Positions 59,995-63,494 of a stretch of 64,000 nucleotides of DNA are shown here, piece by piece. This stretch comes from Aquipseudomonas alcaligenes NBRC 14159 (GTDB lineage Bacteria; Pseudomonadota; Gammaproteobacteria; Pseudomonadales; Pseudomonadaceae). The stretch is from contig NZ_BATI01000012.1 in the NCBI RefSeq assembly GCF_000467105.1, positions 62,001-126,000 on the forward strand, written 5' to 3'. The notes beneath the pieces were generated by a model. The model had not been told where the DNA came from. It saw only the letters and a list, made by a program, of their open reading frames with translations, and made no database searches. The stretch's first letter is position 1, and each line of letters begins with the position of its first letter. Position numbers and translations under genes: made by a program.

Positions 59995-60043
59995 CCGCAG
60001 GCTGACGCGACGAGCGACAGTTGCCTTTTCTGCCACCCAACAT

Positions 60044-60074
60044 ATACTCCCCCCTGTATCTAGATAGGGAGTAT
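60044..60074. promoter_or_regulatory. CsoR-type operator cluster before the c-haem protein gene
   Basis: ATACTCCCCCCTGTAT (60044-60059) has the ATAC-C-rich-GTAT form of CsoR-family operators. Eight bases on, GGGAGTAT (60067-60074) is a perfect inverse of the first ATACTCCC. The right edge includes the first possible ATG (60073) of the downstream gene. Confidence 0.65.
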
Positions 60075-60078
60075 GCCG

Positions 60079-60624
60079 ATGCGCCTGTTCACCACACTGC
60101 TCTGCTGTGCCCCGCTGCTCGCCCAGGCCGCCGACCTGGCACAGCTGCGCGGCGAGGCCGAAGCCCTGATCCCGCCGTTCCAGCAACAGCTGCTGACCAG
60201 CGTGCAGACCGCGGTCGCCACAGGCGGCCCGGCACAGGCCGTCGAAGCCTGCCGCCAACTGGCCCCCGGCATCGCCCAGCAGCACAGCGTCGCCCCTTGG
60301 AAAGTCGGGCGCACCGCCCTGCGCCTGCGTAACCCGGACAACCGTCCGGATGCCTGGGAACAAGCCGTACTGGAAGATTTCCAGCGCCGCAGCCAGGCCG
60401 GCGAGGCCGTCGCCAGCCTGAACCGTGCCGAAGTGGTGGACGGCGAATTCCGCTACATGCGCGCCATCGCCACCGGCGAGCCCTGCCTGGCCTGCCACGG
60501 CAGCGCGATCAAACCCGAGCTGGTACAGCTGCTCGACCGCCACTACCCGCAGGATCAGGCCCGCGGCTTCGCCGCCGGCGAACTGCGCGGCGCCTTCACC
60601 CTGCGCCGCCCCCTGGAGCTCTGA
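60079..60624 (+). CDS. Periplasmic c-type haem DUF3365 (Tll0287-like) protein
   Basis: 181 residues from the ATG at 60079 (GGGAG seven bases upstream); the ATG at 60073 lies inside the operator and too near the ribosome site. Signal peptide about 1-18. A single haem-attachment motif CLACH is at 136-140, inside an RYMRAIATGEPCLACHG block typical of DUF3365. Predicted periplasmic redox or sensor haem protein. First gene of the sulfide operon, two bases before the CsoR-type gene (ATG at 60626). Whether it accepts electrons from sulfide oxidation or senses is unknown. Confidence 0.85.
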   Translation: MRLFTTLLCCAPLLAQAADLAQLRGEAEALIPPFQQQLLTSVQTAVATGGPAQAVEACRQLAPGIAQQHSVAPWKVGRTALRLRNPDNRPDAWEQAVLEDFQRRSQAGEAVASLNRAEVVDGEFRYMRAIATGEPCLACHGSAIKPELVQLLDRHYPQDQARGFAAGELRGAFTLRRPLEL

Positions 60625-60625
60625 G

Positions 60626-60892
60626 ATGACCACCCCCAACACCCAGCAACAGGACGCCATGCTCAAACGCCTGGCCCGCGTCGAGGGCCAGATCCGCGGC
60701 ATCCAGGCCATGATCCGCCGCGGCGAGGAATGCGAGGCCATCGCCCAGCAGTTTGCCGCCGCGCGCAAGGCGCTGGACAAGGCCTACCAGGAGATGCTCG
60801 CGTGCCTGCTCGAGGAAACCGTGCTCGACCCCGCGCGCGACGACGCCGAGACCCTGGCCCGCGTGCGCGCCATCTTCACCAAATACACCTGA
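60626..60892 (+). CDS. CsoR/FrmR-family repressor with atypical cysteine pair
   Basis: 88 residues, all-helical DUF156 fold: RVEGQIRGIQAMI in helix 1-2. Cysteines are Cys36 (EECEAI) and Cys60 (MLACLLEE). By alignment with CsoR, Cys36 is conserved, the metal-ligand His61 is Leu61 and the second ligand Cys65 is Thr65; the second Cys of persulfide-sensing CstR (the Cys65 position) is also absent. Copper or nickel binding is therefore unlikely, and a thiol-based (persulfide) sensor is the better guess from the operon. Operators lie before the first and third genes. Confidence 0.85.
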   Translation: MTTPNTQQQDAMLKRLARVEGQIRGIQAMIRRGEECEAIAQQFAAARKALDKAYQEMLACLLEETVLDPARDDAETLARVRAIFTKYT

Positions 60893-60897
60893 ACCAC

Positions 60898-60914
60898 ATA
60901 CCCCCAGGGAGTAC
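60898..60914. promoter_or_regulatory. Second CsoR-type operator, before the rhodanese gene
   Basis: ATACCCCCAGGGAGTAC, a TACCCC-N3-GGAGTA palindrome with one mismatch, starts six bases after the repressor stop. It covers the GGGAG Shine-Dalgarno of the rhodanese gene, so binding would block both a local promoter and the ribosome site. Confidence 0.65.
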
Positions 60915-60920
60915 CCTGCA

Positions 60921-61463
60921 ATGACCGACACCATCTGCCTGATCGATGCCCCGCGCTTCGCCAGCGCGCGCCAGCAGGGACATGTGCGCTTCCTCATCGA
61001 CGTACGCAGCCCGGCGGAATTCCGCGCCCAGCACGTGGCCGGCGCGCGCAACGTGCCACTCGACCAGCTCAATCCGGCCGCCCTGGTGCAGCAGCTGCGC
61101 CAGGAAGGCCTGCAGCGCGGCGACGAGCTCTACCTGCTGTGCCAAAGCGGCCAGCGCGCGCGCCGCGCCGCCGACCAGTTGCAGCAATTGCTACCCGGCG
61201 TGCAGGTGATCGACGGCGGCACCCAGGCCTGCGTGGCCTGCGGCCTGCCCACCGAAGAGGCCCCCAGCGGCGTGATCAGCATTCAGCGCCAGGTGCAGAT
61301 CAGCGCCGGCAGCCTGGTGCTGCTGGGTGTCGCACTCGGCACCTGGGTGCATCCGGGCTGGTATGGCCTGGCCGCCTTCGTCGGCGCCGGCCTGACGCTC
61401 GCCGGCCTCAGCAACACCTGCGCCATGGCCCTGCTGCTCGCCCGTATGCCCTGGAACCGCTGA
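60921..61463 (+). CDS. Membrane-anchored rhodanese (rhodanese-DUF2892 fusion)
   Basis: 180 residues from the ATG at 60921. Rhodanese domain 1-112 with active Cys74 in LLCQSGQRAR and an extra CVAC (Cys104, Cys107). DUF2892 two-helix membrane domain 119-178 (SIQRQVQISAGSL, FVGAGLTLAGLSNTCAMA), as in E. coli YgaP. Thiosulfate or persulfide sulfurtransferase at the inner membrane. Its stop overlaps the permease ATG by one base. Confidence 0.92.
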   Translation: MTDTICLIDAPRFASARQQGHVRFLIDVRSPAEFRAQHVAGARNVPLDQLNPAALVQQLRQEGLQRGDELYLLCQSGQRARRAADQLQQLLPGVQVIDGGTQACVACGLPTEEAPSGVISIQRQVQISAGSLVLLGVALGTWVHPGWYGLAAFVGAGLTLAGLSNTCAMALLLARMPWNR

Positions 61464-62218
61464 TGGAGATATTGCTGCTGGAGGCCCTGGGCATCGGTGC
61501 CGTGCTCGGCCTGCTGCTCGGCCTCACCGGTGCCGGCGGCTCGCTGGTGGCCCTGCCCCTGCTGCTCAGCCTGCACCTGCCGCTGCGCGATGCGATCGGC
61601 GTCAGCCTCGGTGCCGTGGCCATCACCGCCCTGATCGGCGCCGTGCCGCGCGCCCGCCAGGGCCTGGTGGCCTGGCGCCCGGTGCTGCTGCTGGCCATCG
61701 CCGGCCTGCCCGGCAACGTCGCCGGGCAGTGGCTGGGCCGGCAGATTCCCGAGGCGGTGCTGATCCTCGGCTTCTGCGCCCTGGTGCTGTGGACGGCCTG
61801 GCGCATGTGGCGCAGTTCGAACCTGCCGCGTGAGGGCAGCGGTCCACTGCGCAGCGCCCCGCTGGTTGCCATCGGCCTGGGTGTCGGCCTGTTCTCCGGG
61901 CTGATGGGCGTCGGCGGCGGCTTCCTGGTGGTGCCGGCGCTGCTGGCCTTCACCCCGCTGAGCATGCTGGCCGCCACCGCCACTTCGATGGCGGTGATCG
62001 CCCTGGTCTCCGGCGGTGGCTTCCTGTTCTACCTCAGCGGCGCGCAGCCCTCGCTGCCGCTGCTGGCCGGCCTGGCCCTGGGCGGCGCGGCCGGCGTGCT
62101 CGGCGGCAACGCCCTGGCCCAGCGCCTGGGCGGGCGCACGCTGCAGCGCCTGTTCGCCCTGATGCTGGTGGCGGTCAGCCTGTCGCTGGCCGCACAGAAA
62201 CTCCTCGGAGGACACTGA
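61463..62218 (+). CDS. TauE/SafE-family permease
   Basis: 251 residues with about eight transmembrane helices in two repeats, each with the family's GLTGAGGSLVALPLLL / GLMGVGGGFLVVPALL signature. TauE/SafE proteins move sulfur oxyanions or organosulfur compounds; in sulfide operons of the bigR type they are thought to export sulfite. Coupled to the rhodanese gene upstream; two bases before the dioxygenase gene. Confidence 0.92.
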   Translation: MEILLLEALGIGAVLGLLLGLTGAGGSLVALPLLLSLHLPLRDAIGVSLGAVAITALIGAVPRARQGLVAWRPVLLLAIAGLPGNVAGQWLGRQIPEAVLILGFCALVLWTAWRMWRSSNLPREGSGPLRSAPLVAIGLGVGLFSGLMGVGGGFLVVPALLAFTPLSMLAATATSMAVIALVSGGGFLFYLSGAQPSLPLLAGLALGGAAGVLGGNALAQRLGGRTLQRLFALMLVAVSLSLAAQKLLGGH

Positions 62219-62220
62219 TC

Positions 62221-62913
62221 ATGCTGTTTCGCCAACTCTTCGACAGCGAAAGCTCGACCTACAGCTACCTGCTGGCCGATGCCGGCCAGGCGGTGCTGAT
62301 CGACCCGGTGAAGAACAAGCTGGATGACTACCTGCGCCTGCTGCGCGAACTGGACCTGCAGCTGGTGCTGGCGCTCGACACCCACACCCATGCCGACCAC
62401 ATCACCGCCCTCGGTGAGCTGCGCACGGCCACCGGCTGCCGCAGCGGCTTCGGCCAGCAGAGCGGCAGCGCCTGCGCCAGCTTCACCTTCGCCGACGGCC
62501 AGCGCCTGGCCTTCGGCGGGCGCGAGCTGGTCGCCTGGCACACCCCGGGGCATACCGACGACTCCTACTGCTTCCTGCTGCCGGCCAGCGCCGGCGAGCC
62601 GGGCAAGGTCTTCACTGGCGATACCCTGCTGATCCGCGGCAGCGGCCGTACCGACTTCCAGAACGGCGACGCCCGCGCGCAGTGGGTCAGCCTGCAGCGC
62701 CTGCTGGCCCTGCCCGGTGACACCGAGGTGTGGCCCGGCCACGACTACCGCGGCTGGACCCGCTCCAGCATCGCCGAGGAAGCCGCGCACAACCCGCGCC
62801 TGCAGGTGGCCGATGGCGCGGCCTATGCGCAGCTGATGGCCAACCTCAAGCTGCCCAACCCCAAGCTGATGGACGTGGCCGTGCCGGCCAACCGCGCCTG
62901 CGGCCAAGGCTAG
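62221..62913 (+). CDS. Persulfide dioxygenase (ETHE1/Blh-type MBL protein)
   Basis: 230 residues. Metallo-beta-lactamase fold with mononuclear-iron ligands of the ETHE1 group: His55, His57, Asp59, His60 in THTHADH, His111 in HTPGHT, Asp134 in FTGDTLL and His174 in WPGHDY. It oxidises glutathione persulfide to sulfite. Last gene of the sulfide operon, after the rhodanese that can deliver persulfide and the permease that can export sulfite. Confidence 0.92.
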   Translation: MLFRQLFDSESSTYSYLLADAGQAVLIDPVKNKLDDYLRLLRELDLQLVLALDTHTHADHITALGELRTATGCRSGFGQQSGSACASFTFADGQRLAFGGRELVAWHTPGHTDDSYCFLLPASAGEPGKVFTGDTLLIRGSGRTDFQNGDARAQWVSLQRLLALPGDTEVWPGHDYRGWTRSSIAEEAAHNPRLQVADGAAYAQLMANLKLPNPKLMDVAVPANRACGQG

Positions 62914-62916
62914 TCG

Positions 62917-63381
62917 CTAGTCGACTTCGCCACACAGCTCCGCCACCCGCAGCAGGGCGGCGGTCAGGCTGTGCTTTTCCCACTCCGGCAGCGCCGCCAA
63001 GGCGCTGCGCAGGGCCGGCGGCAGCAGCGGCGGCGCCGCCACCAACAGCGCACGCCCCGCTTCGCTGACGCTCAGCCACTGCCGCCGGCGATCCTCCTCA
63101 TCGCGCTGGCGCAGCAGCAGGCCACGTTCCTCCAGGCGCTCCAGCATGCCCGACAGGGTCGCTGCGCTGAGGCTCACGCGGCGACTCAGACCGCTGGCCG
63201 TCATACGCCCCTCGCCCTCCATCACGCGCAGGATCATCAGCTGCATCGGGGTCAGCCCGCCGAAGCGTGCCAGGCGTTTGGCATGCACCTCCCCGGCCTG
63301 CTGCAGGCGCCGCATGGCGGCGAACAGGGCGGGCTCGAAGGGCGACAAATCAATTTCAGTAGGAAGTAATTTTTCTGACAT
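62917..63381 (-). CDS. MarR-family regulator
   Basis: 154 residues from the ATG at 63381 (an ATG at 63423 is the alternative; neither has a strong ribosome site). Winged HTH: LTPMQLMILRVMEGEGRMTAS, LSRRVSLSAATLSGMLERLEERGL in pieces, and wing RQRDEEDRRRQWLS. Divergent from asnB with a 113-bp gap, as next to the NAGGN osmoprotectant genes in P. aeruginosa, so it may regulate them. Convergent with the persulfide dioxygenase gene. Confidence 0.9.
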   Translation of the reverse strand: MSEKLLPTEIDLSPFEPALFAAMRRLQQAGEVHAKRLARFGGLTPMQLMILRVMEGEGRMTASGLSRRVSLSAATLSGMLERLEERGLLLRQRDEEDRRRQWLSVSEAGRALLVAAPPLLPPALRSALAALPEWEKHSLTAALLRVAELCGEVD

Positions 63382-63494
63382 ATACCGCGCTTTATCGGAA
63401 ATAAAACTTTGACATGAAAGCATTATTTTGTTTGGGTGTAAAAAGGTTCGTGACCGCGCGAACCCCTCCCCAACGGCAACACCGGTAAGGACTT

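Follow-up and report, generated by a model that had tools for sequence, protein, structure and literature searches.

Locus and gene order

Positions 60044 to 62913 of a 64,000-nucleotide stretch of the Aquipseudomonas alcaligenes NBRC 14159 genome (contig NZ_BATI01000012.1; the whole stretch is called the window below) carry five genes on the plus strand, in the order HEM, REP, RHO, TAU and PDO (Table 1). We use these labels for a haem-c protein, a CsoR-family repressor, a rhodanese, a TauE protein and a putative persulfide dioxygenase. An earlier note, made from the letters alone, had placed this gene set here and read the repressor as a persulfide sensor with an unusual pair of cysteines; Pfam recovers all five genes at that place and on that strand. 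Our subject is the repressor, its cysteine layout and the genes around it. No DUF156 protein other than REP was found in the genome (4.8 Mb, 122 contigs), nor any Tll0287-like protein other than HEM.

One base separates HEM from REP, RHO and TAU overlap, and two bases lie between TAU and PDO. The earlier description of the genes as nearly all coupled fits these three junctions but not that of REP and RHO, where a 28-bp gap holds an operator-like palindrome. Between 59900 and 61000 a single promoter-like site was predicted (shuffled sequence averages 0.1), and its -10 box, 60043-60048, lies within or at the edge of an inverted repeat spanning 60044-60074. Position 60044, which had been taken as the start of the region, is the edge of this repeat where it overlaps the predicted -10 box, and no gene starts there. 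A weak terminator-like site ahead of the operon (60007-60024; 0.4 expected) was left unused. PDO matches Pfam Lactamase_B and has an HxHxDH-type motif, and falls below every NCBIfam cut-off.

Table 1. Features of the REP locus, with cytochrome bd genes that lie beside similar sites in related genomes (G and a number denote genomes sampled, G000 being the window's own; L and a number denote individual loci or sequence stretches)
Feature	Position	Strand	Description	Basis
HEM	60073-60624	+	Stand-alone Tll0287-like (DUF3365, sCache_heme) c-haem protein	Pfam E 7e-22, CLACH motif
REP	60626-60892	+	CsoR-family (DUF156) repressor	Pfam Trns_repr_metal E 9.7e-21
RHO	60921-61463	+	Rhodanese domain and YgaP-like TM domain (DUF2892 in the earlier note)	Pfam
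TAU	61463-62218	+	TauE/SafE permease, putative sulfite exporter	Pfam TauE
PDO	62221-62913	+	ETHE1-like metallo-beta-lactamase fold, putative persulfide dioxygenase	Pfam Lactamase_B, THTHADH motif
MarR-family gene	62917-63423	-	Convergent with the operon, directly beyond PDO	
Predicted sigma-70-like promoter of the HEM-REP operon	60021-60048	+	-35 TTGCCT, 16 nt, -10 TATACT (60043-60048)	
Operator-like inverted repeat ATACTCCC ... GGGAGTAT	60044-60051 / 60067-60074		8-nt arms, 15 nt apart; left part is ATACTCCCCCCTGTAT	
Internal operator-like palindrome ATACCCCCAGGGAGTAC	60898-60914		REP-RHO gap	
Cytochrome bd subunit I genes	L184:779-2176; L183:609-2171; L179:16619-18016		Operator-like site about 90-255 bp upstream; three Pseudomonas genomes	Pfam

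The cysteine layout of REP and its recurrence

Cys36 and Cys60 are the only cysteines of REP. When REP is aligned with DUF156 proteins of the His61 type, its Cys36 coincides with the family cysteine, Cys60 comes one residue ahead of the His61 position, and no insertion or deletion lies between 36 and 60; the positions of CsoR His61 and Cys65 are Leu61 and Thr65, as had been read from the sequence before. The Cu(I) site of CsoR, Cys36-His61-Cys65, is therefore absent. REP also lacks the features of FrmR and RcnR, having Leu61 and, at residue 2, Thr in place of the FrmR Pro2, and its cysteines are 24 residues apart where a CstR-type pair, at the CsoR 36 and 65 positions, is 29 apart. The earlier statement that the layout differs both from the classical metal site and from the CstR pair is borne out.

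The layout was found in 19 of the best 20 matches (E < 1e-15) from searches of 149 and 369 genomes, the exception being L038, and also in the weaker match L035; Cys60 is thus kept among close homologues, a point that the earlier note had wanted checked. These 20 proteins (alignment A1), which we call C60 proteins, seeded a scan of one genome per species across 84,980 species. Among the best 80 of at least 556 relatives, a set chosen without regard to cysteine layout, 67 have Cys36 and Cys60 without Cys65. Residue 65 is never Cys in these 67, and residue 61 is His in one only, L110. This protein has Cys36, Cys60, His61 and Glu65, with TauE- and PDO-like genes nearby on the opposite strand. The remaining 13 comprise four Chloroflexi His61 proteins (L136, L141, L145 and L148), five with a CstR-like C36/C65 pair (L152, L153, L155, L156 and L159), three with neither pair (L151, L157 and L158), and L154 of Chloroflexus islandicus, which has Cys at 36, 60 and 65, sits on a long tree branch and is a possible intermediate of the two layouts. 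In 398 sampled genomes of the phylum, 13 strong matches were found (at least 89 bits; the next has 64), of which ten, the window's genome counted, have Cys60 by eye; L194, L196 and L197 lack it. The C60-class relatives without Cys60 that we looked at (L151, L157, L158, L196 and L197) have a short insert ahead of the Cys36 region.

We built a tree of 120 DUF156 proteins from 88 columns, with columns 60, 61 and 65 removed; many of its forks are unresolved. Three changes suffice to place the C60 label on it, where shuffled labels require 33.8. Branches with good support demand two or more of these changes, and a single origin is not demonstrated. By these sequence comparisons the C36/C60 layout is a conserved class that recurs in many proteobacteria, not the oddity of a single protein. 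A literature search, mostly at the level of titles and not covering the CsoR-family network of a 2021 paper, returned no account of the pair.

Predicted fold and geometry

A monomer model of REP, computed from the window's protein and 47 relatives chosen as C60, has a pLDDT of 89 and helices at residues 4-32, 36-66 and 73-87. Its best 20 PDB matches all belong to the DUF156 family (InrS, CstR, FrmR and CsoR; E 1.4e-3 and worse), and the three-helix fold, the profile match to PF02583 and a Cys at the start of alpha2 place REP in this superfamily. Because the predicted alpha2 is unbroken from 36 to 66, the two cysteines of one chain lie about 36 Å apart (24 x 1.5 Å), which would exclude an intra-subunit bond, so that any bond would join chains. 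On this helix Cys60 points about 100 degrees away from residue 61. Two ideal helices were set antiparallel as a toy model, with 61' and 65' forced to within 4.5-7 Å of residue 36; the Cb36-Cb60' distance is then 6.3-12.2 Å (median 10.3), against an imposed value of about 6 Å for 61' and 65'. The shorter cross-subunit disulfide proposed in the earlier note does not follow from the shorter sequence spacing, since Cys60' comes out farther from Cys36 than residue 65' does.

This rough geometry, which disfavours a C36-C60' bond, is the setting in which Cys60 might be structural and Cys36 the sole sensor, acting as Cys36-SSH. A precedent can be seen in ScCsoR (SCO0620) of S. coelicolor, a repressor released by polysulfide in which only Cys37 was found persulfidated (PMC7533328). 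Yet both Cys37 and Cys66 of ScCsoR are required for that release (PMC7533328), and in the present branch Cys60 is kept in nearly as many proteins as Cys36. We consider sensing by Cys36 alone rather unlikely, and prefer a thiol-based repressor in which Cys60 would also take part.

Sulfur genes around C60 repressors

We counted PDO-, rhodanese-, TauE- or BLH-like genes within 1.5 kb of the repressor gene (tblastn, E 1e-5). In 59 loci from the genome searches (20 C60, 30 His61, one other, and eight unlabelled that were left out), such a sulfur gene lies beside 10 of 20 C60 repressors and none of 30 His61 repressors (Fisher p 1.8e-5, kinship ignored; 17 of the 30 His61 loci come from the window's genus, many as near-copies). 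In the best-80 set, which shares some genomes with the first, the counts are 30/67 for C60, 2/5 for CstR-like, 0/4 for His61, 0/3 for loci with neither pair and 0/1 for C60 with C65. Pfam, applied to 55 of 78 downstream same-strand genes, found 12 Rhodanese, 10 Lactamase_B and 5 TauE genes and one E1-E2 ATPase; in 42 of 78 upstream genes it found 10 Tll0287-like, 6 YgaP-like TM and 4 RND permease (ACR_tran) genes, the gene calling being crude in both cases.

Operator-like sites

The exact pattern ATACYCCN{2,3}GGRGTA was scanned in eight genomes, with the reversed pattern as control. In the window's genome its single match is 60898-60913, in the REP-RHO gap; in G148, G118, G093, G054 and G042 it occurs at the REP operon only, in G069 at four places that are all away from the REP operon, and in G082 nowhere. 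The exact 17-mer of 60898-60914 recurs in the same gap of G118, G054, G148 and G093, and these five are the only exact 17-mers in the 13 REP-bearing Pseudomonas genomes. A 16-bp pattern, ATACYCCNNGGRGTAT (ATACYCC-NN-GGRGTAT), with up to one mismatch, has 25 sites in the same 13 genomes against one for its reversed and equally palindromic control. The inverted repeat at 60044-60074 is unmatched by this pattern at one mismatch; ATAC-type sites directly ahead of HEM are also present in G082, G054, G069 and G014.

The position of the sites relative to genes argues most for their being operators. The gene starting next to the site is PDO in six cases, HEM in five, REP in four and a rhodanese in three, 18 of the 25 together; the others are cytochrome bd subunit I (three), a DsrE-like gene (Pfam E 7e-4, below the family cut-off), a 1-Cys peroxiredoxin, a haem peroxidase that is KatG-like by eye, and one unclear case. 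These families were assigned by Pfam for five of the six PDO and two of the three rhodanese genes; the PDO of G064 was assigned because the window's PDO matches it in tblastn, for the first rhodanese of G069:C5 we relied on likeness to the scanned L182 protein, and the G093 REP was placed from locus coordinates. The distance from site to gene start varies between a few bases and about 255, the cytochrome bd genes taking the far part of this range (Table 1). In G069, where the REP operon consists of HEM and REP only, without RHO, TAU or PDO, five sites on other contigs lie ahead of PDO (two) or rhodanese (three) genes, and one ahead of cytochrome bd. Near the operator-bearing PDO-BLH operon of this genome is a gene of ArsR type by eye (L178:5249-5572, minus strand), and two kinds of sulfur regulator, ArsR-type and REP, may share targets there.

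A profile built from 18 distinct site sequences, with the forms of five sites left out (three cytochrome bd, the haem peroxidase and the unclear one), was applied to the region just ahead of REP at a threshold set by the 99th percentile of 11,909 random 260-bp windows. It exceeds this threshold in 28/67 C60 loci (at least one of them, L081, from a genome that supplied a training site), 4/5 CstR-like, 0/4 His61, 1/3 with neither pair and 0/1 C60 with C65. Four proteins with C36/C65 and Gly61 from actinobacterial metagenome-assembled genomes (L152, L153, L155 and L156), apparently ScCsoR-like, have exact or near ATACCCCCAGGGGTAT sites upstream.

With neighbours and sites in hand, a metal sensor, in which Cu(I) or another soft metal at a two-thiolate Cys36-Cys60' site would control REP, becomes very improbable. 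DUF156 ancestry and the fact that two cysteines could in principle bind Cu(I) speak for it, as do the four upstream RND permeases and the one downstream E1-E2 ATPase match. It would have to work with no ligand at 65 in any of the 67 C60 proteins of the best-80 set and with His61 in L110 alone; the downstream families are headed by Rhodanese, Lactamase_B and TauE (25 of 45 families listed), and the operator-like sites lie mostly ahead of sulfur genes, HEM or REP.

The cytochrome bd genes raise a further question. Their sites suggest, at the level of sequence, that sulfide-resistant respiration is part of the REP regulon. The same sites, with those at the 1-Cys peroxiredoxin and the haem peroxidase, would also suit an effector that is some other oxidant or respiratory poison (cyanide, NO, HOCl or peroxide), the sulfur genes being part of a general thiol or respiratory stress response. 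The family of HEM has NO-binding members (PMC12889525), and the CstR-like TTHA1953 of Thermus thermophilus responded in vitro to H2O2 and Cu(II) but not to NaHS (PMC10318464). Against this stand the weak NO binding of the stand-alone P. putida member (PMC12889525) and the prevalence of PDO and rhodanese genes, the commonest targets besides HEM and REP. We regard such an effector as improbable, and persulfide or polysulfide as the better candidate.

The haem protein

HEM has a hydrophobic N-terminus by eye, Cys60 and the motif C138-x-x-C141-H142; its Cys60 and CxxCH are invariant in all 11 aligned HEM proteins. The CxxCH in a Tll0287-like domain places it in sCache_heme (DUF3365), and its true relative is 5b82 (Tll0287; E 1.8e-9). 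Many TAL-effector chains also match and were rejected as relatives, being composition matches only with no stretch passing alone. Stand-alone sCache_heme members are c-haem proteins with predicted Cys/His ligation, for which redox roles have been argued, and share with HEM the CxxCH, an invariant upstream Cys and occurrence in Pseudomonas (PMC12889525); the words CsoR, repressor, operon, persulfide and sulfide are absent from the main text of that paper. We infer that Cys60 of HEM is the axial Cys of this stand-alone class, to which the C59 protein of P. putida belongs. Cys/His ligation of c-haem is also known from SoxA and TsdA.

In the genus, 149 genomes were searched; 13 carry a C60 REP (matches at E < 1e-33) and 15 a Tll0287-like domain, five of which (G059, G068, G093, G121 and G123) were left out for longer frames or a different profile match. 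Stand-alone HEM occurs in seven of the 13 REP-bearing Pseudomonas genomes, always directly ahead of REP, and in three of the 136 others (Fisher p 6.6e-7, kinship ignored). In G093, which has no HEM ahead of REP, a different Tll0287-like domain (G093:C33:196240-196731) lies some 12 kb away from REP, within a long open frame. HEM stays beside REP even where the rhodanese, TauE and PDO of the window's type are absent or replaced (L065, L066, L068, L070 and L071). It lies within 1.5 kb of REP in 10 of the 67 C60 loci of the best-80 set, all titled Pseudomonas or 'Pseudomonadales', and no HEM was found outside Pseudomonadales: the ten Tll0287-like genes among the 42 scanned upstream genes equal in number the Pseudomonadales HEM genes known in that set. 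The haem link and the co-occurrence of the C36/C60 pair with DUF3365, both raised in the earlier note, hold in some Pseudomonas and do not extend to the C60 loci at large. By its genomic distribution HEM is a real but lineage-bound associate of REP, not an obligate partner.

Other features of the locus

The MarR-family gene beyond PDO is retained between the REP operon and asnB in L060 and L065, the latter without sulfur genes. MarR proteins can sense sulfane sulfur (PMC11211675); as the true regulator this gene was set aside as less likely, there being no operator match nearby in genome-wide scans and no promoter-like site. The idea of REP as a plasmid module was also dropped, as no plasmid relative was found at E 1e-5.

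Discussion

The gene neighbours, the positions of the operator-like sites and the resemblance of their form to the operator of a proven sulfane-sulfur sensor support the membership of REP in a sulfide/persulfide regulon, and to this extent the earlier persulfide-sensor reading stands, without its shorter bridge. The proven sensor is ScCsoR, which binds ATACC-N6-GGTAT ahead of csoR, pdo and rhodanese genes (PMC7533328). Both systems pair a two-cysteine CsoR-like repressor with PDO, rhodanese and a sulfite transporter, and have a 16-bp palindrome of this form and autoregulation, which for REP is read from sequence. They differ in spacing, Cys37 and Cys66 of ScCsoR being 29 apart and the REP pair 24, and in that the passages on the ScCsoR circuit name no c-haem gene or cytochrome bd (PMC7533328).

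CstR of S. aureus is likewise a persulfide-responsive DUF156 repressor, which is reported to form di-, tri- and tetrasulfides, and CstR structures are among the folds closest to REP; its Cys31 and Cys60 are 29 apart (PMC9774590). CstR Cys60 corresponds by spacing to REP residue 65, where the S. pneumoniae CstR cysteine also aligns, so the shared number is a coincidence. Rhodaneses and sulfite exporters are frequent targets of repression by CstR homologues (PMC10318464). TTHA1953 is a two-cysteine CsoR-family repressor of sulfur oxidation whose DNA binding is weaker when disulfide-linked; it differs from REP in having Cys39 and Cys68, 29 apart, an operator of TAC/GTA repeats without a G/C run, and distant sox genes as targets (PMC10318464). 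CsoR, InrS, RcnR and FrmR share with REP the fold and the Cys at position X, but their ligands His61 and Cys or His at 65, and the Pro2 of FrmR, are absent from it (PMC5016687). REP looks like CstR and ScCsoR in its predicted targets and operator. It is not filed as CstR because the cysteine spacing that defines CstR and ScCsoR fails; it looks like a CsoR-family reactive-sulfur repressor, and the circuit is most likely of a known kind, the cysteine spacing being what is new in it.

We propose that REP is a thiol-based repressor of sulfane-sulfur (persulfide and polysulfide) detoxification, and hold this account, taken whole, to be very probably the best explanation of the locus. In our model, reduced REP tetramers would occupy palindromes of the ATAC(C/T)CC-N2-3-GG(A/G)GTAT type at two places, the promoter ahead of HEM and REP and a second site ahead of the rhodanese, TauE and PDO genes. 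Rising low-molecular-weight persulfides would persulfidate Cys36, the family-shared residue at the start of alpha2, and Cys60, near the opposite end of alpha2 in another subunit, would form a polysulfide bridge, be persulfidated itself or stabilise Cys36-SSH. The modified repressor would leave the DNA, and rhodanese, PDO and TauE would see to the transfer of sulfane sulfur, its oxidation to sulfite and sulfite export. Operators of this type may, in relatives, also serve other PDO and rhodanese genes, a DsrE-like protein and, for sulfide-resistant respiration, cytochrome bd. HEM would be a periplasmic c-haem protein, co-regulated in a subset of Pseudomonas, with a probable redox or sulfur-handling role.

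Several observations weigh against this account. The toy geometry would give no easy C36-C60' bond; L038, L151, L158, L196 and L197 are relatives with Cys36 and without Cys60, and one C60 protein, L110, has His61. No sulfur gene lies within 1.5 kb in 37 of the 67 C60 loci of the best-80 set, and in 39 of the 67 the 250 bp ahead of REP lack a strong operator, in part because HEM is the first gene in some loci. The reversed control of the exact pattern has one match in the eight genomes, and it falls in G000, equal to the count of the exact pattern there; the single match in that genome therefore proves nothing by number, and its conserved place is what counts. At one mismatch the 17-bp form is about as common as its control, for which reason only the five exact 17-mers were used. 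G000 itself, like G133, has no 16-bp site at up to one mismatch, its internal site being the 17-bp form. Thirteen of the 75 genus genomes without a REP match hold 10 sites against 11 for the control, so several of the 25 sites, up to about one per genome, may be chance.

It is tempting to go further and see in the C36/C60 repressors a separate and widespread group of gamma- and betaproteobacterial reactive-sulfur sensors, whose dithiol switch is other than 36-65' and which couple sulfide detoxification with a switch of terminal oxidase and, in Pseudomonas, with a c-haem protein of the periplasm that reports or handles sulfur species outside the inner membrane. Candidates for the dithiol switch include a long polysulfide bridge that forms once a helix has rotated and a contact between C60 and C60'. 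We advance this wider proposal tentatively, as a possibility that falls a little short of even chances.

Among the reactive-sulfur sensors named for proteobacteria are SqrR/BigR of the ArsR family, FisR, OxyR and MarR-type proteins, all from families other than CsoR. A CsoR-family class conserved in this displaced-cysteine layout would be one more common solution to reactive-sulfur sensing in this phylum. It would also offer a natural test of the distance over which the dithiol site can shift on this scaffold without loss of switching. Its operator pattern would let the sulfide regulon be defined, possibly with cytochrome bd included, and the pairing of HEM with REP gives the orphan stand-alone DUF3365 group a firm genomic setting in Pseudomonas.

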